This document shows positions 19,811-50,990 of a stretch of 64,000 nt of DNA, one piece after another. The notes below the pieces were generated by a model, which saw only the letters and a program-made list of their open reading frames with translations, was not told where the DNA came from and made no database searches. The translations under genes and the position numbers were made by a program. The DNA comes from Acidobacteriota bacterium (lineage in GTDB: Bacteria; Actinomycetota; Acidimicrobiia; Spongiisociales; UBA5794). The stretch is taken from positions 62,001 to 126,000 of the forward strand of contig JADFQA010000002.1 of the NCBI GenBank assembly GCA_022562055.1. The letters are read 5' to 3'. The number at the start of each line of letters is the position of its first letter. Positions within the stretch are counted from its first letter, which is position 1.

Positions 19811-20716
19811 ATGGGCCACTTCGCTGCCGGGGACCTTGACACTGGGGGTGGCGCGTCGGTAGTGTCGCAAGGTCGCTGTGAAAGGGAGGCGCCTATAGAC
19901 CCCGCGCTCCTCGACCGCCGGATAACTCACCTTCCTGGTATCGACGAGGCCAGGCTTCCCATCCGCGCCATGTCCATCGCGGGGCTCGAAGGCAAGCTGG
20001 CCGCGCGAGTCCTCTCCAAGGACATGTCCGGTCCGACCACCCGAATCGTCAGGTTCGAGCGTGATTGGGGATCAGGTGCCGCGGGGGCGTTCACGGCGGA
20101 CGTCTCGCTCCTGGTAATAAGCGGACGTGTCCGCATCGGCGACCAGGCTCTCGGTCGATACGATTTTGCACACATACCCCGACGCTGCCTGATCCCGAGC
20201 ATCCGCGCAGAGACGGGGACTTTGGGTCTGCTTCTCACCGCGGCGCCGGTCGCCTATGACACTACCTCGGGTGGTGTTGCTGGTGCCGTCAAGACAGTGC
20301 TCTTCAACGACATTGCCTGGAAACCTCAACCCCGCCAGCCCGGACGTTTCTTGAAGCCGCTGGTCTCGACCGGGCACGGCGACTCATGGCTGAGCGCATC
20401 GGTCGAATGGTCCGGAGACGACGGACCGTGGCATCGACATTCGGTCGACGAAGAGGTGTTCATCCTGGATGGCGCGATAGCGATCTCGGAACTCGGCACC
20501 CACGGGGCGAAGACATACACCTACCAGCCTGGCGGCTACCTATGGCGGCCAGCCGGCATCCTGCATGCCGGTCCGGGATCATCGGCCACAGACACGGCGA
20601 TCACCTTCCACCACACATCCGGTGATCTTGCAACAGAGTGGGTCGACAGGCACAGCGTGCTCGTGCCGTCCGGTGATGAGCCGCGCTCGCGGCCCGAGTC
20701 ATTCCCGGAAGGTTGA
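19811..20716 (+). CDS. Cupin-domain protein
   Basis: A protein of up to 301 residues with two beta-barrel halves. The second half has a clear cupin metal site, GPWHRHSVDEEVFILDGAIAI, and a later His in AGILHAGPGSS. The first half looks like a degenerate cupin (TADVSLLVISGRVRIGD). Cupins of this size range from dioxygenases to sugar or acyl isomerases, so the reaction cannot be named. The start is uncertain: ATG 19811 gives the longest form, and GTG 19862 is an alternative leaving 284 residues. It is the first gene inside the island and converges with the E1 operon, overlapping the E1-beta stop by 18 nt. Confidence 0.75.
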   Translation: MGHFAAGDLDTGGGASVVSQGRCEREAPIDPALLDRRITHLPGIDEARLPIRAMSIAGLEGKLAARVLSKDMSGPTTRIVRFERDWGSGAAGAFTADVSLLVISGRVRIGDQALGRYDFAHIPRRCLIPSIRAETGTLGLLLTAAPVAYDTTSGGVAGAVKTVLFNDIAWKPQPRQPGRFLKPLVSTGHGDSWLSASVEWSGDDGPWHRHSVDEEVFILDGAIAISELGTHGAKTYTYQPGGYLWRPAGILHAGPGSSATDTAITFHHTSGDLATEWVDRHSVLVPSGDEPRSRPESFPEG

Positions 20717-21679
20717 CAGCGCTCCCGCGACGATACTAGCGACACCGGGTACCACAGCCGCTTCTAGCGGTGGGCTGAAGGGAATCGGCGCCGACACGGC
20801 ACCCACTCGAGCCACCGGCGCTTTCAGATCATCGAAGAGCTCCTCGGTTATTTGAGCAGCTAGTTCGGCCCCGAAACCACCAAACCGCCACGCCTCGTGA
20901 GCGACCACTGCCCGCCCGGTGGTGCTGACCTCGTCGATCACGGTTGTGAGGTCGAGGGGAACCAAAGAGCGGAGATCGACAACTCCTGCATCGATACCTT
21001 GAGCCGCCAGCTTGACGCAGGCCTCCTCGGCGTGAAGCACCATGCTTGAGTACGTCACGATTGTGACGTCACGACCCGGTCGGCAGACCGCTGCCTTTCC
21101 CAACGGAATCCGGTAGTCGCCATCGGGAACCAACCCTCGCTTCGACGTGATCGACTTGTTCTCAAGGTACACGACCGGGTCATCGTCGTCGATTGCCGAA
21201 CGCAATAGACCCTTGGCGTCTGCGGGGTTCGACGGTGCGACGACCTTGAGGCCTGGCATGTGAGTGAAGATCCCTTCGAGGCTGGACGAGTGCTGTCCCG
21301 CTGAAGAGCGGAGAATGCCGTCCGATATTCGCAGCACGAGCGGTACCGAGATCTGACCACCGAACATGTACCTGAACTTCGCCGCCTGGTTCACAATCTC
21401 GTCCATCGCTCCGAGCGTGAACTCAGCGAAGCTCATGGAGGCAACGGGGCGCAACCCGGTCACAGCCGCGCCGACCGAAACCGCCACGATGATTGCCTCT
21501 GAGATCGGTGTATCGATCACCCGATCCCGACCGAATTCCTCGACAAGGCCTCGAAACTGACCGAAGTTGCCACCCCAACTGATATCCTCACCGATCACGA
21601 AGACGTCGTTGCTCTCGAGCATGGCGTAGCGCATCGCTTCAACCGTCGCCTGCCCGAACGTGACACGTCGCGCGCTCAT
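20699..21679 (-). CDS. 2-Oxoacid (acetoin-type) dehydrogenase E1 component, beta subunit
   Basis: A 326-residue transketolase-like beta subunit that pairs with the adjacent alpha subunit to decarboxylate a 2-oxo acid or cleave acetoin. Visible features: ALRYAM-like helix (MRYAMLESNDVFVIGEDI), GRDRVIDTPISE, SAGQHSSSLEGIFTHMPG, and the C-terminal GRAVVAHEAWRFGGFGAELAAQI. Its ATG overlaps the alpha stop by 4 nt. It is the last gene of a tight minus-strand operon of eight genes. No E2 or E3 gene follows; only a separate lipoyl domain is encoded upstream in the operon. Confidence 0.92.
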   Translation of the reverse strand: MSARRVTFGQATVEAMRYAMLESNDVFVIGEDISWGGNFGQFRGLVEEFGRDRVIDTPISEAIIVAVSVGAAVTGLRPVASMSFAEFTLGAMDEIVNQAAKFRYMFGGQISVPLVLRISDGILRSSAGQHSSSLEGIFTHMPGLKVVAPSNPADAKGLLRSAIDDDDPVVYLENKSITSKRGLVPDGDYRIPLGKAAVCRPGRDVTIVTYSSMVLHAEEACVKLAAQGIDAGVVDLRSLVPLDLTTVIDEVSTTGRAVVAHEAWRFGGFGAELAAQITEELFDDLKAPVARVGAVSAPIPFSPPLEAAVVPGVASIVAGALSTFRE

Positions 21680-22662
21680 GCAGGCTCCTCGGTGAATACC
21701 GCATCGATCGCAGATACCGGATCTGGATACTCGCTGTTCTCGGCGAATTCCTCGGCCGCCGCCACCTCAGCAAGAGCGTCCTCCCATGTGCACTCGCGCA
21801 TGGCCTTGTCGAACCATCCAGCGCTGGCGAGCGCCCCCTCCCATCGTCCGATCGGATCGTCCGCTCGACTCGACTCCACCTCCTTCGCGTCGCGATAGAC
21901 TTCCGCGTCACCGACGTAATGGCCGCCGAAGCGATAGGTGACCATGTTGAGCAGGGTCGGTCCTCGTCCTCCGCGGGCGCGGTCAACTGCTTCCGTGGCG
22001 GCGTTGTAAACAGCTCCCGCGTCGTTGCCATCGAGGGAGCATCCGCTCATCCCATACGCGACCGCGCGCACAGCCAGGTCGTCGACGGATGTGGTTCGCT
22101 CTCGGGCCGTGAACTGTGCGTACTGGTTGTTTTCACACACAAACACCACAGGGAGTGCGTGCACGGCGGAAAAGTTGAGAGCCTCGTGGAAGGTGCCCTT
22201 GTTGATGGCGCCGTCACCGAAGAAGCAAACGGTGACCTGGTCTGTCCCCCGGTATCGCGTGGAAAAGGCGGCCCCGGCCGCGATGCCGAACCCACCGCCA
22301 ACGATCCCGTTCGCTCCCAGCATACCCAGCGAGAAATCGGCGACATGCATCGAGCCTCCCCGTCCGCGACAGACACCGGTCACTTTGCCGTAGAGCTCGG
22401 CCATGAGAACATTCATCGCCATGCCTTTGGCGATAGCATGCCCATGACCGCGGTGAGTCGACGTGAGGTGGTCATCGACACGGAGCACCGCGCAAACGCC
22501 AGCGGCGATGGCCTCCTCCCCCAGATATGTATGAACAAACCCGGGGAGCTTCCCCCCGAGAAACAATTGCTCGACGCGGGTTTCGAACACCCGGATCCGC
22601 ACCATGGTGCGGTGAACCTCAAGAGCAGTGTCCCTTGGGATGTTGTGGATTGTCGCGCTCAT
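21676..22662 (-). CDS. 2-Oxoacid (acetoin-type) dehydrogenase E1 component, alpha subunit
   Basis: A 328-residue ThDP-binding alpha subunit. The cofactor motif runs from FFGDGAINKGTFHEA (about residue 149) to the NN of VCENNQYAQ (about 178-179). STHRGHGHAIAKG and GRGGSMHVAD are close to acetoin/pyruvate E1-alpha sequences. ATG 22662 has GAGGTG six bases upstream; a GTG three codons earlier is less likely. Together with the beta subunit it would form an alpha2-beta2 E1. The acceptor would be the free lipoyl protein from 23445. The true substrate (a 2-oxo acid from transamination, or acetoin) cannot be told from sequence. Confidence 0.92.
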   Translation of the reverse strand: MSATIHNIPRDTALEVHRTMVRIRVFETRVEQLFLGGKLPGFVHTYLGEEAIAAGVCAVLRVDDHLTSTHRGHGHAIAKGMAMNVLMAELYGKVTGVCRGRGGSMHVADFSLGMLGANGIVGGGFGIAAGAAFSTRYRGTDQVTVCFFGDGAINKGTFHEALNFSAVHALPVVFVCENNQYAQFTARERTTSVDDLAVRAVAYGMSGCSLDGNDAGAVYNAATEAVDRARGGRGPTLLNMVTYRFGGHYVGDAEVYRDAKEVESSRADDPIGRWEGALASAGWFDKAMRECTWEDALAEVAAAEEFAENSEYPDPVSAIDAVFTEEPA

Positions 22663-22677
22663 CGAGCACACCTCATT

Positions 22678-23448
22678 TTACTGGGCAACGTAGCCTCCGT
22701 CGACAGTCAAGATGTGACCGGTCACCATCCGCGAGGCATCAGAAGTGAGGAACAAAACGGGGCCAATCAGATCCTCGGGTGTACCTAGTTCTCCGCTGGG
22801 GGTACGGGAGAGAAAGAACCGCTTCAGCTCGGGCTCAGTCTCCCACTGCCTCCTGACAATCGCCGTAGCGATATGCCCGGGCGCTATGGCGTTGACTCGT
22901 ATACCGTGCGGTGCCCATTCCACGGCCAACGAGCGGGTCATCTGCACGACACCGCCCTTGCTGGCCTGGTACCCCACGCTCCCCGGAAACGCGACAAGGC
23001 CGCCGATCGACGCGATATTGACGATGGAACCACCATCACCACTCTGGATCATGAGACGCCCAACGGCTCGGCAGACATAGAACGACCCGGTGAGATTGAC
23101 GTCAAGCACGTTCTGCCAGAGGTCGTCAGCGTAGTCAACAGCCGGACTCCGTCCGCCGATGCCAGCACTGTTGACGAGCACGTCAATACGCCCGGTCATC
23201 TTTGCGACGTCGATGGCCATCGCTTCGACGGCATCCGGGTCCCGTACATCGATGTGCGCTGCCGTCGCTTCGCCACCAAGAGCTTCGGCAACTCGGGCGG
23301 CCGCCTCGCCATCAATGTCCGCACACACAACGACGGCGCCCGCGATTGCCAGGCCTCGGGCCATAGTCTCGCCAAGTCCACTCCCCGCTCCGGTCACGAG
23401 CGCCACCCGACCCAGAAGGGAGAACCTATCTCGATCGAGTGTGGTCAT
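22678..23448 (-). CDS. SDR-family dehydrogenase
   Basis: A 256-residue classical short-chain dehydrogenase. The cofactor loop is VALVTGAGSGLGETMA, the acidic DID after the second strand suggests NAD rather than NADP, then VNSAGIGG, catalytic Ser in NIASIGG, and YQASK as the YxxxK pair. The C-terminus TGHILTVDGGYVAQ is standard. Its ATG overlaps the lipoyl-protein stop region by 4 nt, so it is translationally coupled in the operon. A role oxidising a hydroxy intermediate, or acetoin/diol interconversion next to an acetoin-type E1, is plausible but unproven. Confidence 0.88.
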   Translation of the reverse strand: MTTLDRDRFSLLGRVALVTGAGSGLGETMARGLAIAGAVVVCADIDGEAAARVAEALGGEATAAHIDVRDPDAVEAMAIDVAKMTGRIDVLVNSAGIGGRSPAVDYADDLWQNVLDVNLTGSFYVCRAVGRLMIQSGDGGSIVNIASIGGLVAFPGSVGYQASKGGVVQMTRSLAVEWAPHGIRVNAIAPGHIATAIVRRQWETEPELKRFFLSRTPSGELGTPEDLIGPVLFLTSDASRMVTGHILTVDGGYVAQ

Positions 23449-23690
23449 GGCGTCATCACGTAGGCCAGCACCGCGCCGACCAGAACTTCAATGTCGCTCG
23501 CCGCAACAACGATCTCCAGCGTTCCATCGGCCGGAGCCTCCAGTTCCGTCTGGGCTTTCTCGGTCTCGATGAGGACGACACGATCGCCTCTGACCACCGT
23601 AGCCCCCGATCGCTTAAGCCACTCGAGCACGATGATCTCCTCAACGACACCGAGCTGGGGGACCGAGAGAGCGACACGGACACCCATCAA
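23445..23690 (-). CDS. Stand-alone lipoyl/biotinyl-attachment domain protein
   Basis: Only 81 residues: a single lipoyl-type domain with the attachment lysine in IETEKAQTELEAPADG (about residue 45). It lacks the peripheral-subunit-binding and acyltransferase domains of a normal E2, which has 400 or more residues. It sits between the E1 genes and an aldolase-like gene, overlapping its neighbours by 4 nt on both sides. It presumably accepts the acyl or reducing equivalents from the E1 pair. How the lipoyl group is then unloaded and reoxidised is unexplained, unless E2/E3 from elsewhere in the genome serve it. Confidence 0.88.
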   Translation of the reverse strand: MMGVRVALSVPQLGVVEEIIVLEWLKRSGATVVRGDRVVLIETEKAQTELEAPADGTLEIVVAASDIEVLVGAVLAYVMTP

Positions 23691-24358
23691 ATATGACCGT
23701 GTCGCTCAAGGCTCTCGAGCGGCGACGCGCCTGCCCGCATCTCGTCGCGCACCTTCGCCTCAGCGCCAGCAATCTCCTCCGCCTTCGATAGCACGAGCTC
23801 GGCATCCACCGCAGGGACGACGATGATCCCCTCGAACTCGGCCAGCACCATGTCACCGGGGTCGATGGTGACATCACCGATCGTGACGGGTACTTGCGTC
23901 GCCTCCATCTCCCACCGCCCGATGGCGTTAAGCGGAGATAGATCCCGATAGAAGACTTGGAAACCGATGTCACGCAAACCCTCAATGTCCCGCAGGTTGC
24001 CGTCGAGGATGACCCCGGCGCAGCCGCGCTGGGCCGCCGAGTTTGCGGTAAGTTCACCGAAGTGGCCGACGTAGCTGTGGGGATTTACCGACACCATCAC
24101 GGAGTCAGGCGTCAGCCGCTCGAACACTCGAAGGTAGGATTCGATCCGCTCGATACCGGGATCCCATGCGATGTGGGGATCGATGGCACGCCCGAGCACC
24201 GTGTGCGCAACGCCGGCAATCCGTCGCTCGGAGAACAGCGGCCGGAGGGAACTCGGCAACACTTGTTCCCGCATGCCGAGCGCATACAACGCGTCGCAAA
24301 CGACAGGAACCCACAGCTCGCGATACCTGGCGCATAGCTCAGCTCTCGATAGACTCAC
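23687..24358 (-). CDS. RraA-family (HMG/CHA aldolase-like) protein
   Basis: A 223-residue RraA-fold protein. The conserved metal and substrate site is visible as FGELTANSAAQRGCAGVILDGNLRD. Family members include 4-hydroxy-4-methyl-2-oxoglutarate aldolase and oxaloacetate decarboxylases as well as RNase E inhibitors. The G-x20-R-D pattern (GELTAN...GNLRD) is that of the aldolase branch. Placed in a catabolic operon, cleavage or decarboxylation of a 2-oxo acid is the likely role. ATG overlaps the deacylase stop by 4 nt. Confidence 0.88.
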   Translation of the reverse strand: MSLSRAELCARYRELWVPVVCDALYALGMREQVLPSSLRPLFSERRIAGVAHTVLGRAIDPHIAWDPGIERIESYLRVFERLTPDSVMVSVNPHSYVGHFGELTANSAAQRGCAGVILDGNLRDIEGLRDIGFQVFYRDLSPLNAIGRWEMEATQVPVTIGDVTIDPGDMVLAEFEGIIVVPAVDAELVLSKAEEIAGAEAKVRDEMRAGASPLESLERHGHI

Positions 24359-25602
24359 GATGATCCCTCCAGGTAACTGATCGCCGCCAACCCATACATC
24401 AGGGCCGCCTGAGCCACTCCGGCGGCCGCCATGAACTCATTCGGGCTGTGGGCTCGCGGCAACAACCCGGGACCGAAGGCGGCCACGCACGGGATACCAG
24501 CCGTGAGTTGAAAGTGGGATGCGTCGGTCGCTCCAGGGAAGGCGTCGAGCCGTGGCGTCTCCCCGAGCACGGATTTAGCAGCGCGCTGCAATTCGGCAAC
24601 GATCGGTTCGTCGGGACTGATCTCGGTTGCCGGCACCATGAGATCCCAAACAAGTTCAGCGGCCAGATCAGGTTCGTCGGCCATTGCGTCGTCGAGGAAA
24701 CGTTGGATATCAGCGATGAGCTGGTTCTCGTTCATTCCCGGAATCGTCCGCAGGTCACAAGCAAATTCCGCTTTACCCGGGTAAACGCCGTAGAAGACAC
24801 CCGCCTCTGCCATAACGCCAACGTTGACGGTCGGCCCAGTCGAACAGAGTGGATGGGGATCGAACGTGAGGTAGCCTTTTAGTTCGCGATCCATGCGATC
24901 GATTAGCCGTGCCATCTGCACCGTCGCATTGATGCCCTTGATGCGATCCGAGATGGATGAATGCATCTGCGTACCACTGACCTTCACCTTGAATAGAGCT
25001 GCGCCCCTCGAGATCAGATGGATGGCCTCCCACTCGCGCATGATCCCGCTGGGCTCTCCGATCACGGCAACATCGGCCACGAGCCTCCCCTCCTCAGCCA
25101 GCCACTTCGACCCCATCACGGACCCGGCCTCCTCGTCCGCGGTGAATACGACAATGAGTTCTCCGGGGAAGGTACTGACATCGGCAAGCGCCCCCGCGGC
25201 GTACGTCATTCCTGCAACGGCCGCCTTCATGTCGCCAGAACCCAACCCTATGAGGTCGCCGTCTCGAAGCAACGGATCCCAAGGATCGGTGTCCCAGGCC
25301 TCCATGTCGCCGGCTGGCTTGGTGTCGAGGTGGCCGGAGAGCATCAGCACGCGACCGGGGGATGTGCCCGGAATCCGAGCAATCAAGTTAGGTCGCTCTT
25401 CGCTCGCTCCGACCCGCTCGACGTCCTTTACCCCGAGTTCCGCGAGGCGGCCGGCAACAAGATCTGCCACGGCTCTCTCGTCACCCGGAGGGTTCGGCGA
25501 CGGCGTAGCGATGAGCTCACGCGCGAACTCGAGTACCTCGCCCTCACGGGGGGTGAGGAAGTCACGGACCGCACGCTCTGCGCTTGTTGTTCGGCCCGTC
25601 AC
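24355..25602 (-). CDS. M20-family deacylase (ArgE/DapE type)
   Basis: A 415-residue dinuclear zinc amidohydrolase. It has the GHLDTKPAGD and GLGSGDMKAA metal motifs, TADEEAGS with the catalytic and ligand Glu pair, and a lid domain around residues 190-310. Enzymes of this group remove acyl groups from N-acyl amino acids (ArgE, DapE, aminoacylases) or cut dipeptides. GTG 25602 overlaps the aminotransferase TGA in a GTGA junction, which fixes the start better than the upstream TTG. In the operon it would act just before the aminotransferase, freeing an amino group. Confidence 0.9.
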   Translation of the reverse strand: MTGRTTSAERAVRDFLTPREGEVLEFARELIATPSPNPPGDERAVADLVAGRLAELGVKDVERVGASEERPNLIARIPGTSPGRVLMLSGHLDTKPAGDMEAWDTDPWDPLLRDGDLIGLGSGDMKAAVAGMTYAAGALADVSTFPGELIVVFTADEEAGSVMGSKWLAEEGRLVADVAVIGEPSGIMREWEAIHLISRGAALFKVKVSGTQMHSSISDRIKGINATVQMARLIDRMDRELKGYLTFDPHPLCSTGPTVNVGVMAEAGVFYGVYPGKAEFACDLRTIPGMNENQLIADIQRFLDDAMADEPDLAAELVWDLMVPATEISPDEPIVAELQRAAKSVLGETPRLDAFPGATDASHFQLTAGIPCVAAFGPGLLPRAHSPNEFMAAAGVAQAALMYGLAAISYLEGSS

Positions 25603-26768
25603 GCCCGCACCCCGGTCCAATCCCGAACAGCAGTGGCGATGCGTCGCGTCCCCTCGGCAATGACGTCAGCATCCGCGGCCAGCGATATTCGGACCCACCC
25701 TTCGCCAGCGGGGCCAAAGACGGACCCCGGGGCCACGCTGACGCCACGCTGCTCAAGCAGTCTGAGAGAGAACTCGAAACTCGACACATCCGTCGTTGAG
25801 ACGTCAACGAGCATGTAGATTGTCGCATCGGGTGGTACGACTCGCAGGCCAGACTCGGCGGCCACGTTCACCGCAACCTCCGCCCGACTGCGATACGCGG
25901 CGAGCATCGCATCGATTGGTGCACGGGGTCCTGTGAGCGCTGCCTCAGCTGCCTTCTGCGAGATGGTGCTCGGGCACGACACCTGAGGTTCCTGGAGCGT
26001 GCGAAGTAATGTCGCGAACCTCCTCGGGACGACTGCATAGCCGACCCGCCAACCTGTCATCGCATACACCTTGGAAAAGCTGTACACCGTGAGGACGCGA
26101 CCGTCCTCGTCGAAGAGCGCGGCAGGGGTGTGGACGGTGTGGTGATCCAGAATCAACTCGTCATACACTTCGTCGCTAAGGACCCACAGGTCATGTGCCT
26201 GAGCAAACGCAACAAGCTCTGCCATCAACGCGGTCGGGAACACTGCGCCGGTCGGGTTCGACGGCGAGTTGATAAACAATACCTTGGTTCGGTCGGTCAT
26301 CATCGCCTCAAGGTCCTCGATCTGCGGCAAGAATCCGTTCGCCGCGTCGAGCCTGTAGAAGACCGGGTCGCCGCCAAGCAGCCGCACCATCTCGTCCATG
26401 TTCGGGAAACCGGGGGTGGGCAGCAGGACCTGGTCCCCGGGATCAAGCAGCGCCAGGTAGATTGAGAAGAGTGCATTCATTGCGCCCGGAGTCACGACGA
26501 TCTGCTCGGACTCGACCGCCAGGCCGTTCACCGTCCGAACCTTGTCCGCCACCAGCTCCCGCAGGCTTCGCAAGCCTCCGTTGGGACCATAACCCGTGTA
26601 GCCGTCCGAGGCGGCGGCCGCCGCCGCCTCGATGATGTGCACGGGCGTGGTGAAACTAGGCTCCCCCACCTCAAGTCGGAGGACACCCGGGTACGCGTCG
26701 GCGGCGTCGAATAATACGCGGATTTCCGAGCGGCACAGCGCTGTCGCGCGTTGCGAAGCGGGTTTCAT
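25599..26768 (-). CDS. Class I/II aminotransferase (aspartate aminotransferase fold)
   Basis: A 389-residue PLP enzyme. The lysine that binds PLP is Lys233 in YSFSKVYAMTGWRVGY. Also visible are Asn171 in NSPSNPTG, Asp199/Tyr202 in LSDEVYDE, and the carboxylate-binding Arg in WVRISLA. Length and motifs fit the broad-specificity AAT-I gamma group. ATG 26768 overlaps the upstream PPOX-protein stop by 4 nt. A paralogue of similar organisation lies at 41007 in the same island. It would convert the amino acid released by the neighbouring deacylase into a 2-oxo acid, for which the E1 and aldolase genes provide outlets. Confidence 0.92.
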   Translation of the reverse strand: MKPASQRATALCRSEIRVLFDAADAYPGVLRLEVGEPSFTTPVHIIEAAAAAASDGYTGYGPNGGLRSLRELVADKVRTVNGLAVESEQIVVTPGAMNALFSIYLALLDPGDQVLLPTPGFPNMDEMVRLLGGDPVFYRLDAANGFLPQIEDLEAMMTDRTKVLFINSPSNPTGAVFPTALMAELVAFAQAHDLWVLSDEVYDELILDHHTVHTPAALFDEDGRVLTVYSFSKVYAMTGWRVGYAVVPRRFATLLRTLQEPQVSCPSTISQKAAEAALTGPRAPIDAMLAAYRSRAEVAVNVAAESGLRVVPPDATIYMLVDVSTTDVSSFEFSLRLLEQRGVSVAPGSVFGPAGEGWVRISLAADADVIAEGTRRIATAVRDWTGVRA

Positions 26769-27337
26769 GCCCCACTTTCCTTGCGGTGAGCAGCCTTCTC
26801 CTCGAGATCCGGCCGTTGTCCAGCGTCGAAGTAACTGAGTGCCCAGTCGGCACCTTGCCATGTCGCGAGCCTTCCGTCTCGCGGCACGAGCTTAACCAGA
26901 TAACGCTCCCAGCCATATGAGGGCACGAGTTGCTCGGGTCCGTCGGATCCCGAATACCGGGTCGCCATCTCGTTCGCTACCTCGACCCACTGCGACCCTT
27001 CACCAGGAGCGGGACCTTCGAGTATCTCCGCCGTGCACTGCGCGAGCACCTTGCGGATGCGGGGATGGGCTGTCTCCTCGATGCAGACGGCACACCGCGG
27101 ATCACGCTTCAGATCTGCCACCCACTTCGAACGTTTGCGGCCGACGACATAGAAGGCGTCGCCATCCCACTGGTACCAGAGCGGCACCACCATGGGCCAA
27201 CCGTCCGCTTTATTGAAGGAGAGCTTCAGGAGCCACGTGCTGTCAGGACTACGCAGAAATTCGTCAATCTCTTGATCGAGCATCCTTCCAGCGTCCGAAC
27301 CCTCCTCGTAATACTTGGCCTGTTTGAACTCGGTCAC
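26765..27337 (-). CDS. PPOX-class split-barrel flavin/F420-type protein
   Basis: A 190-residue split-barrel protein of the pyridoxamine-phosphate-oxidase-like superfamily. It resembles the two island proteins at 45064 and 45636: VPLWYQWDGDAFYVVGRKRSKWV here and PLWYHWDGNAFWFV there. Such proteins bind FMN, F420 or haem and many reduce unsaturated compounds. GTG 27337 has GAAGGA five bases upstream. A GTG at 27427 would add an Arg-rich extension with no family match. First gene of the eight-gene minus operon. Confidence 0.8.
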   Translation of the reverse strand: MTEFKQAKYYEEGSDAGRMLDQEIDEFLRSPDSTWLLKLSFNKADGWPMVVPLWYQWDGDAFYVVGRKRSKWVADLKRDPRCAVCIEETAHPRIRKVLAQCTAEILEGPAPGEGSQWVEVANEMATRYSGSDGPEQLVPSYGWERYLVKLVPRDGRLATWQGADWALSYFDAGQRPDLEEKAAHRKESGA

Positions 27338-27450
27338 CACAATCCTTCGACTAGGGCGGAAGCGAATCAGCCGAACCTCGTGCGGTCGACACGGAGCATT
27401 GAGACGGAACCCAGTGGCCGTCTTCACCCCTCCCGCCGATGCGTCACACG

Positions 27451-27465
27451 ATTATATCAAATCCG
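27451..27465 (-). promoter_or_regulatory. AT-rich promoter of the deacylase/E1 operon
   Basis: Minus-strand GGATTTGATATAATC contains a TATAAT -10. The same 15-mer, with one change, occurs at 29484-29498 in front of the EthD-SDR pair. A transcript from here would have about 110 nt of leader before GTG 27337. Confidence 0.55.
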
Positions 27466-27910
27466 CTCGGACCTATCGAATCTCTTGATGAAAGAGACAC
27501 GGACGGAGCACCGAACGCTCAGGCATCAAGAATTTGAGGTCGAGCTTCGAACCTGTGGCTGCGAATGTTCAAGGCCCGCCAATCCGCGACATCGTCTTAG
27601 CAACGGAATCCGCATGACCCATCAGGAGATTGTCGTGCCGCGCCCCCTCAACGGCTCGCGATGCTGGACTCTCGCGGCGGTAGCGGCGAAGCCGCCCATG
27701 CGCTTTCGGATCGGGCGGATGGGTACGTACGCGGTCATCAGATCTCCTGAGTTCCTCGTCGAGATCAATGGTCTCGGGCATGTGCGCCCGCCGAGGAATT
27801 GAGTCAGCCGACAGGCCGCTCCGTAGACGCGACCCCTGTGCAAGAGAACCTCGCTTGCAGAGAGGACACGTTCAAAAGACATGGAGAGGTGAAGCGGAGC
27901 TTGTCACACA
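27466..27910. other. Intergenic region, no supported gene
   Basis: About 445 bp between the operon promoter and the CocE-type gene stop. Short frames exist on both strands, one starting MTAYVPIRPIRKRMGGF on the minus strand, but none has a recognisable domain or a matching ribosome site. It may hold decayed coding DNA. Confidence 0.5.
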
Positions 27911-29446
27911 TCAGGACACCTCGTTCATCGTCAGCCTGCTCGGACCGAGATGAACGGTGCGCCGTCCCGAACGAACGATGTAGCGGGGCCAGGCTGCGCC
28001 GCTGACATCAATACGGATACGGTGCCCACGACCGAACTCGTGACCGATCACACCGAAGTCGACAGTCACACGGCTGCGCCGCGACTCTACGACTCCATCA
28101 CTCACGTTCCATGCGCCACCATCGGGGTGCACGTCGATCAGTGCAGCGACGAATTGCTGCAAGGCCGCGTCACCGGACACCGATAGTGTGAGGGCAGCGG
28201 GTCCGACAGCACGGATAGGCGTATCGAGAGGATCCGACGTGAATGTCAGCACGTCGGATCGCCGTATCCGTGAACTCACGTCGAAGGCGCCACTGCGAAG
28301 CACCGGCGCCCACGGGTAGCAACGACCCCCTACGGCCGGCGTCGGCGCGTCCACCAAGACTTCGAATGAAAGCTCACCTGGCTCAGCTGGCGCATCTCCC
28401 AGGCCTCCCGCACCATCCAGATACCATCGACGCGGGGCCTCGGGCAGCGGCCACGCGTCGAACTGAACCCAGTCGTTCGCTCCCGTGATAAACAGCGATG
28501 CCTTGGGTGGCAGAGACCCCGATCCCCTCAGATGGACGTTGTACCAATCGATCTGGAGCTGATGAAGGTCGACCACGGCTCTACGGCCAAAGTCAAGATT
28601 CCCAATGCACCGGCCGAGGGGTAGACCCGAATGGTCCCATGGGCCTGTCACGATGTGCGACCCATCACCCAGCGCGTCGAAAAGACGAAACGACCCGGCG
28701 GCAAAAATGTCGTACCACCCGGCGACGACTAGCGACGGCGCTGCGACCTGAGCCAAGTCGGTCTCGGTCGGGACCCGCGGGTCGTTCGGATAGGGATCTT
28801 GTGCACCAGCCCAGTCGAAGAACCACGACGCCGCTGGTGTGGCACGCAGCGCCGGTTGGTCGACACCCATGGCAGAGGTCGTCCACGGGTCATCGAGAGC
28901 GGCGAGTAACGCATCGATATTCCGAGACCGTCGGTCGAGAGTCGCAATCGAGTTCAGCGCCCACGACAGATGGAAGCCGATGTCGAGTGCTCCGCCTCGG
29001 CGTATCCAGGTGTCCCGAACGTCGGCAGGGGAAAGCGCAGGAAGGATCGCCGCGAGACCCTCATGACCTGACGTCGCGACGGCAAGCTGGCTGAAGGCGT
29101 TGTAGCTGACGCCTCCCATCGCGACATCCTCGTTGCACCATGGCATGGACCTAACCCATTCCAAGGCAGCTGTCCCATCAGCCTGCTCATTGACGAAAGG
29201 TTCGAAGTCACCCCCCGAAGCGAACCGGCCCCGAACGTCTTGTAGCACCACGGCATACCCAGCACGCGCGAGGCTCAATGCGTGCACCTGGAGGGACACC
29301 GACGCATGCGTCGTCCGGTCATAGGCTGTCCGCATGAGGATGGCAGGGTACCGTCCAGGACCGGCGGGACGGATAACGTCCGTCGCAAGTGTCACACCGC
29401 CGACGGCAGGCACTGCGACATCGGTATCAACAGAGAGAGCGCTCAC
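27911..29446 (-). CDS. CocE/NonD-family hydrolase
   Basis: A 511-residue alpha/beta serine hydrolase with the C-terminal jelly-roll typical of X-Pro dipeptidyl-peptidase-like acylases (cocaine esterase, glutaryl-7-ACA acylase, alpha-amino-acid ester hydrolase). Nucleophile Ser114 lies in AMGGVSYNAFS, the Asp in VAGWYDIFAAG, and the His in TGPWDHSG; LQDVRGRFASGG is the usual oxyanion region. GTG 29446 lies 7 nt after a TAATGT box and has no Shine-Dalgarno site. It has no signal peptide, so it acts on an imported ester or amide. It is divergent from the EthD-SDR pair. Confidence 0.9.
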   Translation of the reverse strand: MSALSVDTDVAVPAVGGVTLATDVIRPAGPGRYPAILMRTAYDRTTHASVSLQVHALSLARAGYAVVLQDVRGRFASGGDFEPFVNEQADGTAALEWVRSMPWCNEDVAMGGVSYNAFSQLAVATSGHEGLAAILPALSPADVRDTWIRRGGALDIGFHLSWALNSIATLDRRSRNIDALLAALDDPWTTSAMGVDQPALRATPAASWFFDWAGAQDPYPNDPRVPTETDLAQVAAPSLVVAGWYDIFAAGSFRLFDALGDGSHIVTGPWDHSGLPLGRCIGNLDFGRRAVVDLHQLQIDWYNVHLRGSGSLPPKASLFITGANDWVQFDAWPLPEAPRRWYLDGAGGLGDAPAEPGELSFEVLVDAPTPAVGGRCYPWAPVLRSGAFDVSSRIRRSDVLTFTSDPLDTPIRAVGPAALTLSVSGDAALQQFVAALIDVHPDGGAWNVSDGVVESRRSRVTVDFGVIGHEFGRGHRIRIDVSGAAWPRYIVRSGRRTVHLGPSRLTMNEVS

Positions 29447-29453
29447 AAGAACT

Positions 29454-29459
29454 ACATTA
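29454..29459 (-). promoter_or_regulatory. Leaderless -10 box (TAATGT) of the CocE-type gene
   Basis: Minus-strand TAATGT plus 7 nt leads directly to GTG 29446. It selects this start over a TTG 12 codons upstream. Confidence 0.5.
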
Positions 29460-29483
29460 CGCGGATTCGAACACGGTGACAAC

Positions 29484-29505
29484 GGATTTGATATTATCTA
29501 CAAAT
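29484..29505 (+). promoter_or_regulatory. AT-rich promoter and operator candidate of EthD-SDR
   Basis: GGATTTGATATTATC (29484-29498) matches the element at 27451 in 14 of 15 positions. Here it forms half of an inverted repeat GATTTG-N10-CAAATC ending near 29506. TATTAT at 29492-29497 is the likely -10. Confidence 0.5.
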
Positions 29506-29525
29506 CACGACGTGGGAGGTACCAG

Positions 29526-29891
29526 ATGATCAAGGCCATCGGCACAGCATACAAGCGCGACGACCTCACCACGGAGGAGTTTTTCGACTACTGGAGAGAG
29601 ACCCACGCTCCGATCTCAGCGAGAGCGCCGGGGCTCCGTGGCTATGTCGTCTCCGAGGTTATCCGCAAGGTCCAAGGCGAACTCGAAGCGGAGGCGTTCG
29701 TCGAGCAGTGGTTCGATGACGAAGAGGCGTTCGAACGGGCCAGCGTCTCACCTGAGATCGCGGCCGCATGGGAAGACGTACCTCGCTACGCCAAGACGTC
29801 GGGAACTTTCTGGATCGTCAAAGAACACGTCATTATACCGCCGCCCGACCGCGGGCCGGGTCTTGCCAGCACATGGAAGGAATGGCCGTGA
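29526..29891 (+). CDS. EthD-family protein
   Basis: A 121-residue ferredoxin-like dimeric alpha/beta-barrel protein. MIKAIGTAYKRDDLTTEEFFDYWRETHAP is the usual EthD N-terminus with the conserved HAP. EthD-type proteins accompany catabolic P450s or act as small lyases, cyclases and decyclases; the reaction here is unknown. ATG 29526 follows GGGAGGT at 29513-29519. Its TGA overlaps the GTG of the SDR gene, so the two are coupled. Confidence 0.82.
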   Translation: MIKAIGTAYKRDDLTTEEFFDYWRETHAPISARAPGLRGYVVSEVIRKVQGELEAEAFVEQWFDDEEAFERASVSPEIAAAWEDVPRYAKTSGTFWIVKEHVIIPPPDRGPGLASTWKEWP

Positions 29892-30676
29892 GCCGTCGCT
29901 TCGAAGGAAAGAACGTCCTCGTCACGGGCGCCGGCAGCGGGTTCGGACGTCGCACCGCACAGCGGTTCGCCGAGGAGGGTGCTAACTACCTCTATCTTGT
30001 CGACTACAACCAGGAGCGACTCGACGCGACAGCTCCGACCATCGAAGAGAGGGGAGGAAAGCCGGTCAAGATCTGCGCCGACCTATCCGAAATGGAGAAC
30101 GCGGCGAACGCCGTTGCCACTGCCCTTGAGGTCGACCCGAAGATCGACGTTCTGGTTTCGAATGCTGCCGCGTGGGTCAACGAGGACTTCATCGATATGA
30201 AGGACGAATCATGGCGGCGGGTTCTGTCGGTGAATCTCGATGCCTACTACGTGCTCGCCCAACGCGCCGCGCGCGCAATGCGGGATACCGGCGGCGGAGT
30301 CATTCTCTTCACCGCATCAATCAGTTCCCTTGGCCATGGCCGAGGTTTCACCGCGTACAGTGTGGCCAAGGCCGGCCTCGTATCTCTCGCAAAGGCAATC
30401 GCCGTCGAGTGTGCGCCGTACAACATCAGGGCGAATTGCGTGAGTCCGGGGCCCGCCGACACCCAGCAATCAGTCGACCTCGCCGGAGCAGAGTTGATGG
30501 CGAAATGGCGGCGGGAGGGATTCCCTGTGGTCCCGTTGAACCGGCTTGCATCCGATACCGACATTGCTAACGCCTTCCTCTACCTCGCTTCCGATGAAGC
30601 GAGGTACGTGACCGGAATCAACCTCGTGGTCGACGGGGGACTGACTGCGCAGATGTACGACGTCCCGAAAAGCTGA
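29888..30676 (+). CDS. SDR-family dehydrogenase
   Basis: A 262-residue classical SDR: NVLVTGAGSGFGRRTA cofactor loop, acidic VDYNQ after strand 2 (NAD preference likely), VSNAAAWVNE, catalytic Ser in FTASISSLG and YSVAK for the YxxxK pair, ending GINLVVDGGLTAQ. GTG 29888 overlaps the EthD stop in a GTGA junction. It probably works with EthD on the same intermediate. Confidence 0.88.
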   Translation: MSRRFEGKNVLVTGAGSGFGRRTAQRFAEEGANYLYLVDYNQERLDATAPTIEERGGKPVKICADLSEMENAANAVATALEVDPKIDVLVSNAAAWVNEDFIDMKDESWRRVLSVNLDAYYVLAQRAARAMRDTGGGVILFTASISSLGHGRGFTAYSVAKAGLVSLAKAIAVECAPYNIRANCVSPGPADTQQSVDLAGAELMAKWRREGFPVVPLNRLASDTDIANAFLYLASDEARYVTGINLVVDGGLTAQMYDVPKS

Positions 30677-32751: not shown

Positions 32752-33726
32752 TTACGCAGAGCCTCCAACGAGGCCCGCATCGATGAGGCGAGATAAGTCA
32801 GCGATACAGCCGGCGATGCCCTCGGCAAGGGGGCGGTGCTGCGACGTGCTGTCGAGCAGCCGGTCGATACCGGACCCATCAATCTCATCCGGGAGCGGCA
32901 ACGGGTCGTCGTCGAAGGACACGACCGCACCGGGAACGGCCTCCGTTATCATCGCGGCCACCTCAGCAATCGTTGCGGATGGGCCGCTCATGTTGTGCAC
33001 TGCCGCCGAGTCGAGTTCCAGCCGCGCCGCTGCAACGAAACAAGCCGCAACGTCCGCGGCGTGTTGGAACGTCGAACTCCCACCGAAAGGGATGTGGGAT
33101 GGCTTGCCGACGGCTGCGGCGATCATCGCCTTAGTGGGCGCCGACGTGAGTCCCTGGTCGCGGCCCGGACCATAGACGATACAAGGTCGAAGCCCGACTG
33201 AGCCGACGCCCCAGTCGGCAGCGTACATCCTCGCGGTCCATTCGTTTGCTTGCTTGAACGCTCCGTAGAGCGTTGTTGGGGCCAAGACCGAGTCATCCCC
33301 GGCTACACCCCCGGCGTACATGGCTGCCGGGCCAAAGACGGCAACCGAACTCGCATAGCTGACACCTCGCACGCGACCATCGCTACGACGAGCCGCCTCA
33401 AACACGTTGACAGTGCCTGTAACATTGACCTGTGATCCCAGAACCGGGTCTGCCTGGCAGAACGGTATCTGGAGGGCGGCAAGGTGGAGGATGTGGGTGA
33501 TTCCCTCCTCCTCGACTACCTGCTCCACCGTGGCAGGATCGCGGATATCGCCGCGTCGTGCGACCAGGCCAGCCAGTTCTGCGTCATCGAGCACGAGACG
33601 AAGACGGTGGTCGTCATCACTCACGTCAAACGCGACAACGGCCGTGCCCTCTCGGACTAGTGCGGCTACCGCCCAGGCTCCGATGCAGCCGCCCGACCCG
33701 GTTACAAGGAACCGCTCGTCGCTCAT
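32752..33726 (-). CDS. NAD-dependent epimerase/dehydratase (extended SDR)
   Basis: A 324-residue extended SDR. The cofactor loop is FLVTGSGGCIGAWAV, an acidic Asp ends strand 2 (FDVSDDD, NAD-type), HILHLAALQ follows, catalytic Ser lies in SYASSVAVFG, and the Tyr-Lys pair is YGAFK. The usual C-terminal domain supplies substrate specificity; sugar epimerases, reductases of carbonyl compounds and lactone-forming enzymes share this layout. ATG 33726 is divergent from the ABC transporter operon. It converges with the Ntn acylase with only 7 bp between stops. Confidence 0.87.
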   Translation of the reverse strand: MSDERFLVTGSGGCIGAWAVAALVREGTAVVAFDVSDDDHRLRLVLDDAELAGLVARRGDIRDPATVEQVVEEEGITHILHLAALQIPFCQADPVLGSQVNVTGTVNVFEAARRSDGRVRGVSYASSVAVFGPAAMYAGGVAGDDSVLAPTTLYGAFKQANEWTARMYAADWGVGSVGLRPCIVYGPGRDQGLTSAPTKAMIAAAVGKPSHIPFGGSSTFQHAADVAACFVAAARLELDSAAVHNMSGPSATIAEVAAMITEAVPGAVVSFDDDPLPLPDEIDGSGIDRLLDSTSQHRPLAEGIAGCIADLSRLIDAGLVGGSA

Positions 33727-33770: not shown

Positions 33771-33800
33771 TCGACGCGCCATCACCAAATAGTATATAAT
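33771..33800 (+). promoter_or_regulatory. Promoter of the peptide transporter operon
   Basis: TATAAT at 33795-33800 with TCGACG at 33771-33776 as the -35, spaced by 18 bp. This is the clearest consensus -10 in the window and leaves a leader of about 75 nt before ATG 33881. Confidence 0.6.
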
Positions 33801-33807
33801 CCGCAAA

Positions 33808-33880: not shown

Positions 33881-35704
33881 ATGGACAACTCGTGGATGAG
33901 AGAAGAGTTCGGCCAGGAGGTCGTAGAACTCAGTGAGCAATACAAGGCAAAGAACATCACTCGACGCGGATTCATAAAACAAGCAGCGTTGATGGGGGTC
34001 GGGTTGACGGCTGCGGGAACTATCCTCGCCGCCTGCGGAGGCGACGGCGACGGTACTGCTGCTTCAACGACAGCGGCAGGGGCCATAAGTTCAACGACAG
34101 CGGCAGGGGCCATAAGTTCAACGACAGCGGCAGGGGCCATAAGTTCGACAACTGAAGGTCCGATGCAGCCGGTCACGGGCGGTACCCTGCGCGAGGGCTA
34201 CAACCGCGACGTGTCCAGCCACGATCCGCTCACAACAAACTGGTACGACCCTGCGTACTTCGCGATTTACGAGGCGATTCTCTCGAACGATCCGAGCGGC
34301 GCGACCGTGCCTCAATTCGCCTCGGCGTTCTCCGTGTCGGACGACGGACTCGAATATCGGTTCACGATTCCAGACGGTAAGCGGTCGCACTCTGGTGGGA
34401 CCATCGACGCCGAGATGGTCGCCGAGTTCTATCGCGCAGTACAACAGTACAGCTTCATCGCTGGCCTCGCCGCACCGGTGGACACCTATGTTGCCGAAGG
34501 CAACGACGTCGTGATGAAGATGAAGAACGCCTGGATCGGCGCTCTCGGCCCACACAAGACCGGGTATTGGCGGATTATCAACATAAATACCTGGAAAGAG
34601 GCAAGCATCAACGCGGACGGCACGCTAAACGTCGAGTCGGGCTACGGCACCGAGTTCGCCGACGGCACCGGCCCCTTCACTCATGAAGAATGGGTGCCGG
34701 GCAGCCACGTGCTCGTCAAACGGTGGGAGGACTACCCCGGCTCGCAGACTCCATTCTTCGAGAATAAGGGTAAGGCGTATCTCGACGGCATCCGCTGGAC
34801 CGTCATCACCGAGGCTGGACAGCGCGCGACGCAGCTTGAGAACGGCGACATCGACACCCTGATCGGCCCTGCGCCTCAGGATATCAGCCGGCTCGAGTCG
34901 AACTCCGACTTGACCACTGTGAGGCATCCCGAATGGTCGGGGTACCACCTTGCCATGAACAGAGACTACGACGAGTTCTTCGGCGACGCGCTCACCCGGC
35001 AGGGTCTGTCTCATGCCCTGGACCGCCAGGGCATGGTGGACGCCATCCTCTTCGGCAACGGTGCGCCGACGTTTGGACCATTCCCGACCACCGACCGTCA
35101 GTACGAGCCAGCCGTCGAGCAGTTCAACCAGTTCGATATCGAGCTGTCGAATAAGAAGCTCGACGACGCTGGATGGGTGCTGGGAACCAGTGGGGTTCGG
35201 GAGCGAGGCGGCTTCAAATTCGAGTTCGAGTATCTGGTCGAAGACGAGGCTATACAGAAGGCAGTTGCCGAGGCGGTTGCCCAGCAATTCTCCATCGTCG
35301 GCGTCAAGGCGAACCTGAAGGTCGTGGACAGGGCCGTGGCGTTCGAGCTCCAGAGCGGTGAAGGCCGCGATGCAACACCCATGTCGCTCTTCTTCTGGCT
35401 CTGGCCGATTCCGCTCGACGTACTCATCCTGTTCGGCGGGTCGCAGTTCATCCCCGTGCCAAACTTCTCGCACGCCGTGGAGCCGAGGGTCGATGCGGCG
35501 ATCGAAACATGGCTCAGCTCCGCCACCGAAGCCGAGGCCCAAGCGGCTTCCTCGAACTTCCAGCTCGCGTGGGCGGAGCAGCTGCCGTTCATGCCGATCA
35601 TGAACCAAAACGCCACGTTCGTCCACAACAACAAGGTACACGGGTGGCAGCCATTCGTGTGGAACCTGTACCCGTACTACAACGACACGTGGATCGAGGC
35701 GTAG
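33881..35704 (+). CDS. Peptide-type ABC transporter substrate-binding lipoprotein (Tat-exported)
   Basis: A 607-residue family 5 solute-binding protein. The N-terminus carries a twin-arginine motif (Arg28-Arg29 in TRRGFIKQ), a hydrophobic stretch and lipobox LAAC with Cys52, so it is predicted to be exported folded by Tat and lipid-anchored. Next is a Ser/Thr/Ala linker with three tandem TTAAGAISS copies. The mature domain shows the usual family signatures (YRFTIPDGKRSHSGGTIDAE, ALDRQGMVDAILFGNG). It captures an oligopeptide or similar bulky ligand for the DppC/DppB permease that follows. ATG 33881 gives the complete signal. Confidence 0.92.
   Translation: MDNSWMREEFGQEVVELSEQYKAKNITRRGFIKQAALMGVGLTAAGTILAACGGDGDGTAASTTAAGAISSTTAAGAISSTTAAGAISSTTEGPMQPVTGGTLREGYNRDVSSHDPLTTNWYDPAYFAIYEAILSNDPSGATVPQFASAFSVSDDGLEYRFTIPDGKRSHSGGTIDAEMVAEFYRAVQQYSFIAGLAAPVDTYVAEGNDVVMKMKNAWIGALGPHKTGYWRIININTWKEASINADGTLNVESGYGTEFADGTGPFTHEEWVPGSHVLVKRWEDYPGSQTPFFENKGKAYLDGIRWTVITEAGQRATQLENGDIDTLIGPAPQDISRLESNSDLTTVRHPEWSGYHLAMNRDYDEFFGDALTRQGLSHALDRQGMVDAILFGNGAPTFGPFPTTDRQYEPAVEQFNQFDIELSNKKLDDAGWVLGTSGVRERGGFKFEFEYLVEDEAIQKAVAEAVAQQFSIVGVKANLKVVDRAVAFELQSGEGRDATPMSLFFWLWPIPLDVLILFGGSQFIPVPNFSHAVEPRVDAAIETWLSSATEAEAQAASSNFQLAWAEQLPFMPIMNQNATFVHNNKVHGWQPFVWNLYPYYNDTWIEA
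34063..34143 (+). repeat. Three 27-bp tandem repeats in the lipoprotein linker
   Basis: The unit beginning TTCAACGACAGCGGCAGGGG occurs three times with no differences (34063-34089, 34090-34116, 34117-34143). It encodes TTAAGAISS in the flexible linker after the lipid anchor. Perfect copies imply recent expansion; copy number can change in frame and would alter linker length. Confidence 0.95.
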
Positions 35705-36017
35705 AAGGAAGTCGCGAGGAGAGAACGGTGTCCCTTGAGACACGGTATCTCGGTGCGCGAGAACAGCTTTTCGCACCGGACGTCTCCAGTGCGAGTTGGC
35801 GCCCTACTGTGGAGGCGCGCGATCGGCACCCACAACATCAGACGTCTCGCCGTCAGTGTCGAGACCCGGAGAGGCCACAAAGTGGCCAAGTCCCCCGGCT
35901 TCGTGCTGGCGCTTCCTATCATCTGGATCTCCAGATTCGGTTACGTGACTTCCCGGCCGCGGTTTCTAAATGTCTGAGCGCAGGGTTGCTCAACGCTCAG
36001 CGAGAGGAGGATGCTCG
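35705..36017 (+). other. Spacer between binding protein and permease; doubtful small frame
   Basis: A 313-bp gap inside an otherwise tight operon. GTG 35729, preceded by GAGGAG, opens about 98 codons to a stop at 36022-36024, but the product is polar and Arg/Gln-rich with no family resemblance. It may be a decayed gene, an RNA element or a processing region that sets binding-protein excess. Confidence 0.35.
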
Positions 36018-36959
36018 TTGGTAGCCGAGGGAACGTCCACACACCTCGACGACTGGAACCGGCGGCTCGCAGAATACGAGGAGAGCCAGCACCTCGGCGG
36101 GCGGAGGCGGGTACTGTCGGCGATGCGCAGCAACAAGCTGCTCCTACTCGGCGGCACGCTCGGCCTCGTCGTACTCACTGCCGGCGTTCTTGGCCCGTGG
36201 ATCTCTGGCGTCGACTACACGGCCCAAGACTTCCAAAACACCCATCTCCCGCCAGGGAGCGAAGGTCACATCCTCGGTACTGACGGTCTCGGACGGGACA
36301 TCGCCGTCCGACTTTTCATGGGCCTCCGAGTCAGCCTCATCGTAGCTGCAGGTGTCACTGCGTTGGCTCTTGTCGCCGGAATCATGCTCGGGATGGCGAG
36401 TGGCTTCTTAGGCGGCTGGGTTGACCGTAGCATCCGCGGCGTCGTTGACTTCGTCTGGGGCTTTCCACTGATCCTCGTTGCAGTGCTCTTCGCCGGGGGC
36501 CTGGGAGAAGGGTTATTCCCGGTGATCCTGGCGGTGGGATTGGTCAACACCGCGGCGATCGCCCGCGTGGTGCGTGGCGAGGTGCTCGCGCTGTCCGAAC
36601 AAGAGTTCATCGAAGCCGCCAACGCCGGCGGCCTTTCCACGTTCCGTATCATGTGGCGCCATCTTTTCCCGAACATCCTCGCCGCGGCTTTCGTCCTGGC
36701 CTCCTACTACGTCGCCGTCGCCATCATCGCCGAGGCCGCTCTCTCGTTCATCGGCCTCGGAGCGCAACCGCCAACTCCGAGCCTGGGCCAAATGGTCGCC
36801 GAGGGGCGGAACTTTCTCCGTCTCAATCACTGGGAATCGACCCTTCCCGGCATGACTATCGTCATCCTTGTGCTTTCAGCAAGCCTGATCGGCGATGGCC
36901 TCCGCGATGTCTTTGACCCACGACTCCGCCACGATGCCAACAGAATCGACGAAGAATGA
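36018..36959 (+). CDS. Peptide-type ABC transporter permease (DppC-like)
   Basis: A 313-residue inner-membrane permease. An N-terminal cytoplasmic segment and first helix (LLLLGGTLGLVVLTAGVLGPW) precede HILGTDGLGRDIAVRLFMGLRVSL, the OppC/DppC signature. The EAA loop is FIEAANAGGLSTFRIMWRHLFPN. TTG 36018 is chosen because AGAGGAGG lies seven bases upstream; ATG 35970 has no ribosome site. The stop overlaps the DppB-like start by 4 nt. Gene order C-B is the reverse of the usual B-C. Confidence 0.9.
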   Translation: MVAEGTSTHLDDWNRRLAEYEESQHLGGRRRVLSAMRSNKLLLLGGTLGLVVLTAGVLGPWISGVDYTAQDFQNTHLPPGSEGHILGTDGLGRDIAVRLFMGLRVSLIVAAGVTALALVAGIMLGMASGFLGGWVDRSIRGVVDFVWGFPLILVAVLFAGGLGEGLFPVILAVGLVNTAAIARVVRGEVLALSEQEFIEAANAGGLSTFRIMWRHLFPNILAAAFVLASYYVAVAIIAEAALSFIGLGAQPPTPSLGQMVAEGRNFLRLNHWESTLPGMTIVILVLSASLIGDGLRDVFDPRLRHDANRIDEE

Positions 36960-37873: not shown

Positions 37874-37880
37874 TGAGACC

Positions 37881-39619: not shown

Positions 39620-39621
39620 AC

Positions 39622-43057: not shown

Positions 43058-43077
43058 GAAGCTGGTTCGTTCGCGGC

Positions 43078-43866: not shown

Positions 43867-43867
43867 G

Positions 43868-44972: not shown

Positions 44973-45005
44973 TTGGAGTCCCACAACGGCAAGTGTATAT
45001 TATAC
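44973..45005 (+). promoter_or_regulatory. Divergent promoter with palindromic -10 (TTGGAG/TATATT)
   Basis: TTGGAG (44973-44978) and TATATT (44996-45001) are spaced by 17 bp, facing the PPOX gene. The 11-bp palindrome GTATATTATAC (44995-45005) covers the -10, so it may be an operator. A second TATAAT follows at 45006-45011. Confidence 0.5.
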
Positions 45006-45063
45006 TATAATGGTGTCGTTGGTCGATCATCTCGAACGGCCGTGATCGAAGAGGAACCTCAAC

Positions 45064-45606: not shown

Positions 45607-45635
45607 CCCCAGAACGACATAGCAAAGGATCAACC

Positions 45636-50851: not shown

Positions 50852-50941
50852 GGCGCTCGCGACTGCAGATCGCGAAGCACTGGTCGGCCCGACATCCGCC
50901 GCTTCCACCCTTCAGAATAGGGAATCGCTGAGTTCAGATGA

Positions 50942-50952
50942 TAATATACAAT
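50942..50952 (+). promoter_or_regulatory. AT-rich -10 region of the FAH-type gene
   Basis: TAATAT (50942-50947) and TACAAT (50947-50952) overlap in the divergent gap before ATG 50991. TAAT/ATTA arms around them form a small inverted repeat. A -35 is not obvious. Confidence 0.4.
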
Positions 50953-50990
50953 TACCTGGCGACCAAGAAGACCAAGAAGGTGAGGAACAG

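Follow-up and report, generated by a model that had tools for sequence, protein, structure and literature searches.

Gene content of the island and the element shared by two promoters

The window (the whole 64,000-nucleotide stretch of DNA analysed here) harbors an island of transport and breakdown genes. Genes were called with a home-made coding score with a minimum length of about 80-90 residues, so that small genes can be missed, and the Pfam scan covered the region from 19.8 to 54.6 kb, with its 34 called genes. It left out a small lipoyl-domain ORF (about 23441-23690), which was recognised by eye from its translation; if this ORF is counted, the first minus-strand operon comprises eight genes, as originally predicted. 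The putative targets and the proposed binder are listed below.

20699..27337, minus strand: putative target operon 1 (PNPOx-like protein, aminotransferase, M20, RraA-like aldolase, lipoyl domain, SDR, E1 alpha, E1 beta)
27911..29446, minus strand: putative target, CocE/X-Pro peptidase-like hydrolase, divergent from EthD
29526..30676, plus strand: putative target, EthD-domain protein and SDR
32752..33726, minus strand: putative target, epimerase-family protein, divergent from the transporter
33881..40491, plus strand: putative target, SBP_bac_5, two permeases, ABC ATPase, hydrolase and amidohydrolase
41007..44956, minus strand: putative target, ABC ATPase, HpcH/HpaI aldolase, acetamidase/formamidase and aminotransferase
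45064..46941, plus strand: putative target, two PNPOx-like proteins and SDR, divergent from the ATPase operon
49253..51830, both strands: putative targets, divergent amidohydrolase (minus) and FAH-family hydrolase (plus)
53036..53740, minus strand: GntR/FCD (FadR-subfamily) regulator by Pfam, proposed binder

The product of 53036-53740 was the sole DNA-binding protein recognised by Pfam among the 34 called genes. It combines an N-terminal GntR winged helix-turn-helix (PF00392, 5.4e-15, 55.2 bits, cut-off 27) with a C-terminal FCD domain (PF07729, 7.5e-21, 75.3 bits, cut-off 24.3), and its nearest solved chain is 3c7j, of the GntR family (4.2e-25). At least one more protein of the GntR/FCD type, sharing 29% identity with it, is encoded in the genome of origin.

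A 15-bp element is present at the two promoters named in the original prediction: GGATTTGATATAATC on the minus strand at 27450-27464 (copy 1, one position off the predicted 27451-27465) and GGATTTGATATTATC on the plus strand at 29484-29498 (copy 2), with 14 of 15 positions identical. The predicted overlap with the -10 region was borne out at both promoters by the hexamers TATAAT and TATTAT inside the copies, each forming part of a textbook extended -10 (TGA-TATAAT in copy 1 and TGA-TATTAT in copy 2). Both copies thus contain the TGn-TATAAT-like element upstream of a start codon that is expected of an ordinary extended -10 promoter. The EthD start codon lies 27 nt downstream of copy 2, and that of the PNPOx-like gene about 112 nt downstream of copy 1, the latter start being taken as 27337 because the G031 orthologue suggests so.

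The original prediction depended on the 15-mer being rare elsewhere in the genome, and no further match with two or fewer mismatches was found in the genome of origin (2,928,660 bases in 83 contigs, 97% complete). Shuffling of the window gave 0.57 matches to the 15-mer at up to 3 mismatches, with 13 of 100 shuffles reaching 2; taken alone, this window-level test is weak. The motif GATTTGATANNNT was found in the same genome at the two promoter sites and once inside an open frame. TTTGATANNNT was considered as a general housekeeping promoter and rejected: it matches the genome 23 times and its reversed control 12 times, and the majority of its matches fall within open frames. By eye, a GATTCGA-like word was also seen 19-21 bp upstream of each GATTTGA (27450-27485 and 29463-29498), which could be an extra half-site.

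A palindrome over the -10 box at five island promoters

Related AT-rich -10 boxes were seen at other island promoters. Motif discovery over the island promoter gaps had been proposed along with the original prediction. When carried out by EM on 35 such gaps from three genomes, it returned the palindromic motif GATTnTATAnAATC, or CGGATTnTATAnAATCCG in its 18-bp form, lying over the -10 box; its half-site is RATNNTA, and one half-site is the -10 box itself (TATNAT). The log-likelihood of the 14-bp palindrome was 74.6 in the 35 real gaps, in comparison with 21.5-39.4 in 15 draws of 35 gaps from 153 other gaps of the genome of origin and 21.1-32.8 in 15 shuffles, the real gaps being partly orthologous among the three genomes, and so not independent, and the control gaps coming from one genome. 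These values were obtained at equal effort for the 14-bp palindromic case (150 EM starts each, 15 + 15 controls); a first EM run had used 250 starts for the real set vs 120 for the controls.

Five promoters per island carry the palindrome at corresponding places in the genome of origin, G064 and G031, namely those of the catabolic operon, EthD/CocE, the transporter, the ABC ATPase operon and amidohydrolase/FAH. The sites in the window are given here with their scores and window ranks after training without the genome of origin.

27448..27465, minus strand: putative operator 1, before the eight-gene catabolic operon; -10 TATAAT at 27456-27451 within the extended -10; 19.4 bits, rank 3; orthologous sites in G031 and G064
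29483..29500, plus strand: putative operator 2, between the divergent CocE-like hydrolase and EthD-SDR; -10 TATTAT at 29492-29497; 20.2 bits, rank 2; orthologous sites in G031, G064 and G102
33786..33803, plus strand: putative operator 3, between the epimerase gene (minus) and the peptide-type ABC transporter operon (plus); 21.7 bits, rank 1; orthologous sites in G031 and G064
44994..45011, no strand assigned: putative operator 4, the weakest, between the ABC ATPase/HpcH/acetamidase/aminotransferase operon (minus) and the PNPOx-like/SDR genes (plus); 13.2 bits, rank 5; orthologous sites in G031 and G064
50938..50955, minus strand: putative operator 5, between the amidohydrolase (minus) and the FAH-family hydrolase (plus); 16.5 bits, rank 4; orthologous sites in G031 and G064

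In a leave-one-genome-out analysis, all 15 sites ranked 1-5 in their own 64, 57 or 43.5 kb; as the sites had been registered in the joint search, this test is not fully independent. With a nine-site model built from the other two genomes only, the sites at 33788, 29485, 27450 and 50940 were the top four in 464 kb of the genome of origin, and the one at 44996 scored 12.2 bits, below six intragenic matches of the same 464 kb. Operator 4 had an EM posterior of 0.34, and its G064 counterpart (29252), which lies inside a gene as called here, was added only after a scan with a model trained on the genome of origin. A second register of the palindrome overlaps operator 4 at 44991-45004. Overlapping registers with a 5-bp offset were observed at 44991-45011 and 50935-50955, and also in G064 (12512/12517) and at locus L098 (17896/17901).

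The palindrome changes the picture of the element in two respects. The inverted repeat GATTTG-N10-CAAATC, originally predicted around copy 2, is literally present there, and it is absent at copy 1 and at the orthologous copies in G031, G064 and G102, so we do not take it for the operator; what is conserved is a shorter dyad of 14-18 bp over the -10. The related sequence TTGATATC near 52750, also part of the prediction, exists in the window and was rejected as a site: it reached 5.7 bits against the island motif, vs 17.1-22.6 bits for the five sites, which belong to the training set of that model. In substance the original prediction was right, but it recognised two of the five sites and picked the wrong dyad.

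Alternatively, the sites might be nothing more than strong extended -10 elements (TnTGn-TANNNT) that the promoters share by chance or on account of their strength, with no regulator involved. The textbook extended -10 of both copies fits such a view, as does the fact that AT-rich -10 boxes are near-palindromic by nature. Against it, 4 of the 10 TATNAT hexamers that lie upstream of island genes have the left arm RAT beyond the -10, compared with 0 of 6 elsewhere, and TATNATC (six occurrences) and GTATANNAT (four) are confined to the window among 227 sampled upstream regions, counted on the transcribed strand. No palindrome of at least 12 bits was found in the 153 control promoter gaps. In the 400 kb outside the window a single match reached 14 bits and none 15, and RATNKKATATWATC, written from four of the sites, matched exactly those four in 2.93 Mb, with one more at one mismatch. 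An ordinary extended -10 does not explain why there is a left half-site or why the sites are concentrated in the island, and we regard this explanation as very improbable.

Divergent genes flank four of the five sites, an arrangement in which one site can serve both sides. It is the point in favor of an activator, or of a regulator whose action depends on the side of the gap, in place of a simple repressor at the -10. The site, however, covers the -10 hexamer itself, and a protein site over this hexamer usually blocks the polymerase. Activation or side-dependent action thus seems quite unlikely to us, and a repressor site is the reading we retain.

Occurrence of the motif in relatives with and without the regulator

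In G031 the element reads GGATTTGATATTGT before the orthologous operon and GGATTTGATATCTT before EthD; in G064 it reads GATTTGATAATAT before the operon, which there begins with an M20 gene, and GATTTGATAAAAT before EthD; and in G102 GGATTTGATATTTT precedes EthD. At the G064 operon (L020, about 5246-6527) the operator was kept while the first genes changed, an M20 amidohydrolase replacing the PNPOx-like gene. Exactly two matches to GATTTGATANNNT were found in G031 (60% complete) and two in G064, only at the operon and EthD promoters. Among the 16 genomes searched, there were also two matches in G102, two in G099 and one in G061, and none in the other 11. The second G102 match (L114) was discounted, as it falls in an AT-rich stretch containing a long T run. 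Those of G099 and G061, two genomes without an orthologue of the regulator, lie outside any such island and were not taken as island sites. One of the G099 sequences, GATTTGATAGTTT (L108:1513), precedes a start codon that has a good ribosome site, at an unrelated gene with no island context. With the palindrome, two sites were found in G102, the first at EthD and the second some 1 kb away from the regulator (L100:537); a search for an operon-1 site in this genome found none.

Regulator matches at 1e-33 or better were restricted to 9 of 395 genomes drawn from the class, the genome of origin included. Orthologues with at least 48% identity over at least 149 residues were present in the genome of origin, G102, G064, G031 (two), G077 and G095, with identities of 77% for G102, 60% for G064 and 55% for G031. 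A 48% match in G092 was rejected as an orthologue, since it extends over no more than about 80 residues in the DNA-binding part and has SRIP in the helix, and G092 was counted among the genomes without one.

Occurrence of the palindrome follows that of the island and the regulator across genomes. In six held-out loci, from contigs or genomes with an orthologue, 7 distinct sites of at least 14 bits were found in 60,959 bases (about 2 kb of them counted twice), in comparison with 0 in 134,855 bases from 14 loci of relatives without an orthologue. The latter count leaves out L062, L063, L066, L082, L083 and L085, whose best scores were 1.4-13.8, the 13.8-bit match being at L083, an EthD locus of an Acidobacteria MAG. 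Sites of at least 14 bits accompany an orthologue or paralogue on the same contig or genome in G031:C70, G077, G095 and G102; no EthD match was found in G077 and G095.

The EthD promoters separate the two halves of the palindrome. In genomes without an orthologue, 11 of 11 keep TTGATA-N3-T and score 0.9-7.1 bits, whereas those of the four genomes with an orthologue score 13.9-21.5 bits, only L087 (17.7) lying outside the training set. The survival of the extended -10 in all 11 promoters is the further point in favor of a promoter element with no regulator. As these promoters retain the extended -10 and not the operator, only the -10 half is kept where the regulator is absent. The EthD promoters of the f6 genomes, which lack the regulator, had been considered as an argument against its involvement; the argument is reversed by the absence of the left half-site there.

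The element was read as the operator of the 53036 protein because no other regulator was recognised there among the island genes. The results near regulator genes are less specific. Within about 1.5 kb of the regulator gene, a match of at least 14 bits was found at 2 of 7 orthologue loci (24,935 bases); for other GntR/FCD genes the figure is 5 of 20 loci (69,314 bases). As proximity does not separate orthologues from other FCD genes, another FCD protein could bind the motif. The flanks of the regulator gene itself contain no site here (best score 9.0 bits), in G064 (11.4) or in G031:C9 (7.8). The island copy of the gene in G031 is split over two frames (G031:C9, 34476-35089; error or decay), and an intact paralogue, 50% identical, is present on G031:C70, where the gap directly before it contains the palindrome, one of the seven held-out sites. 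Moreover, site and regulator share one island, so their co-occurrence is confounded and cannot alone prove the pair.

The similar operators near other FCD genes, the lack of a site in the flanks of 53036 and the split G031 copy would fit a real operator bound by a regulator encoded elsewhere, either another GntR/FCD protein or a member of an unrelated family. The position of 53036 as the island's only recognised regulator and the presence of sites with its orthologue or paralogue in four other contigs or genomes argue in the opposite direction, and a binder encoded elsewhere appears unlikely. The motif was assigned to the FCD type because similar operators lie near other FCD genes and because of its 2-nt spacing. 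The model is partly a family-level motif, good for this call and weaker for naming the protein, and we lowered our confidence in the full reading because the motif near regulator genes does not single out orthologues.

Altogether, comparison of sequences suggests that the operator set is real and of a known kind, with the 53036 protein as its probable binder. The original prediction of a repressor site for the island GntR/FCD protein stands insofar as the element is regulatory and this protein is the best candidate; it gives way to a different dyad and to five promoters instead of two. We thus favor, with reasonable confidence, a five-site operator private to the island, probably bound by the GntR/FCD dimer from 53036 and most likely repressing. 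Such a dimer would bind the palindrome, one half of which is the -10 box, covering the -10 and blocking RNA polymerase, and initiation would be prevented at up to nine transcription units. A small molecule, the island substrate or an intermediate, would bind the FCD domain and release the dimer, which would switch on transport and breakdown together.

The proposed regulator and known FadR-subfamily systems

According to PMC4494728, FadR-subfamily operators are palindromes with 2- or 3-nt spacing between GT and AC and with TKGT/ACMA boxes; the arginine of the recognition helix (HTH position 38, Arg-45 in FadR) provides the principal base-specific contact, which is to G, and a proline at position 40 avoids G/C. 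The island palindrome, a dyad of 14-18 bp in the palindromic model, falls in the 2-nt class. Its half-site RATNNTA lacks the TKGT/ACMA boxes, the G position being A in 39%, T in 39% and G in 21%, and GTATAC is at the centre of none of the 15 island sites.

The helix departs from the subfamily at the corresponding place. In all 6 orthologues whose available sequence includes it, position 38 is leucine (SLIPVREA), in comparison with Arg 11, Ser 4, Pro 2, Phe 2 and Met 1 in 20 other GntR/FCD proteins, none of which has leucine; a further fragment, G092:C6, has arginine. Numbering follows Table 1 of PMC4494728, with the alignment made by eye. Membership in the subfamily was maintained because the arginine is usual and not defining. 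The proline at position 40 is found in the orthologues and also in most other FCD proteins, so that it does not discriminate. The leucine agrees with an A/T-rich operator, for few sites and an alignment by eye.

Near other FCD genes, GTATAC centres were found at L077:1420, L079:2102, L081:1405, L101:1366, L102:2204 and L103:1309, that is, at 6 of the 11 loci with Arg in the helix (SRIP), and TTTGATCAAAT was found near 2 of the 4 loci with Ser (SSVP; L074:1286 and L075:2238). Helix residue 38 and the operator centre may change together. It is conceivable, as a tentative scenario, that one FCD lineage exchanged the G-reading arginine for leucine while its operators moved from TNGTATACNA to an A/T-rich palindrome with one half-site serving as the -10, and that where the regulator was lost only the -10 half remained.

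If this scenario is true, operator and core promoter would be one element evolving under both constraints, and if the exchange of leucine for arginine explains the lost G contact, the island would be a natural experiment in repressor-operator co-evolution with the -10 box as operator. On the favored reading of the sites, a 15-bp coincidence becomes a defined five-promoter regulon of a transport-and-breakdown island in an uncultured lineage, with a candidate protein and base pairs named. A literature search, of limited coverage and with most subscription literature outside it, found no prior description of the regulon, and a search with the recognition-helix letters, a weak test, found no match.

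Comparison with known systems places the sites within the family and apart from its best-known members. They resemble the 2-nt operators of the FadR subfamily in being A/T-rich palindromes with the same half-site spacing, as single sites in divergent gaps, and differ from them in that the GT/AC of the boxes is conserved there and not in the island. BioR and NanR are given as exceptions to the subfamily consensus in PMC4494728, which quotes TTATMKATAA as the BioR operator of alpha-proteobacteria. Like the proposed regulator, BioR belongs to the FadR subfamily and uses a palindrome without the GT box; it differs in taxon and target genes, and the island motif extends to the RAT arms and coincides with the -10, this comparison being one of operators. 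For the mode of action, the closest precedent is DgoR of E. coli, a FadR-family repressor described in PMC7674646 as binding inverted repeats that overlap its catabolic operon promoter, which further argues against an activator at the island sites. DgoR differs in ligand and genes and serves only as an analogy in arrangement.
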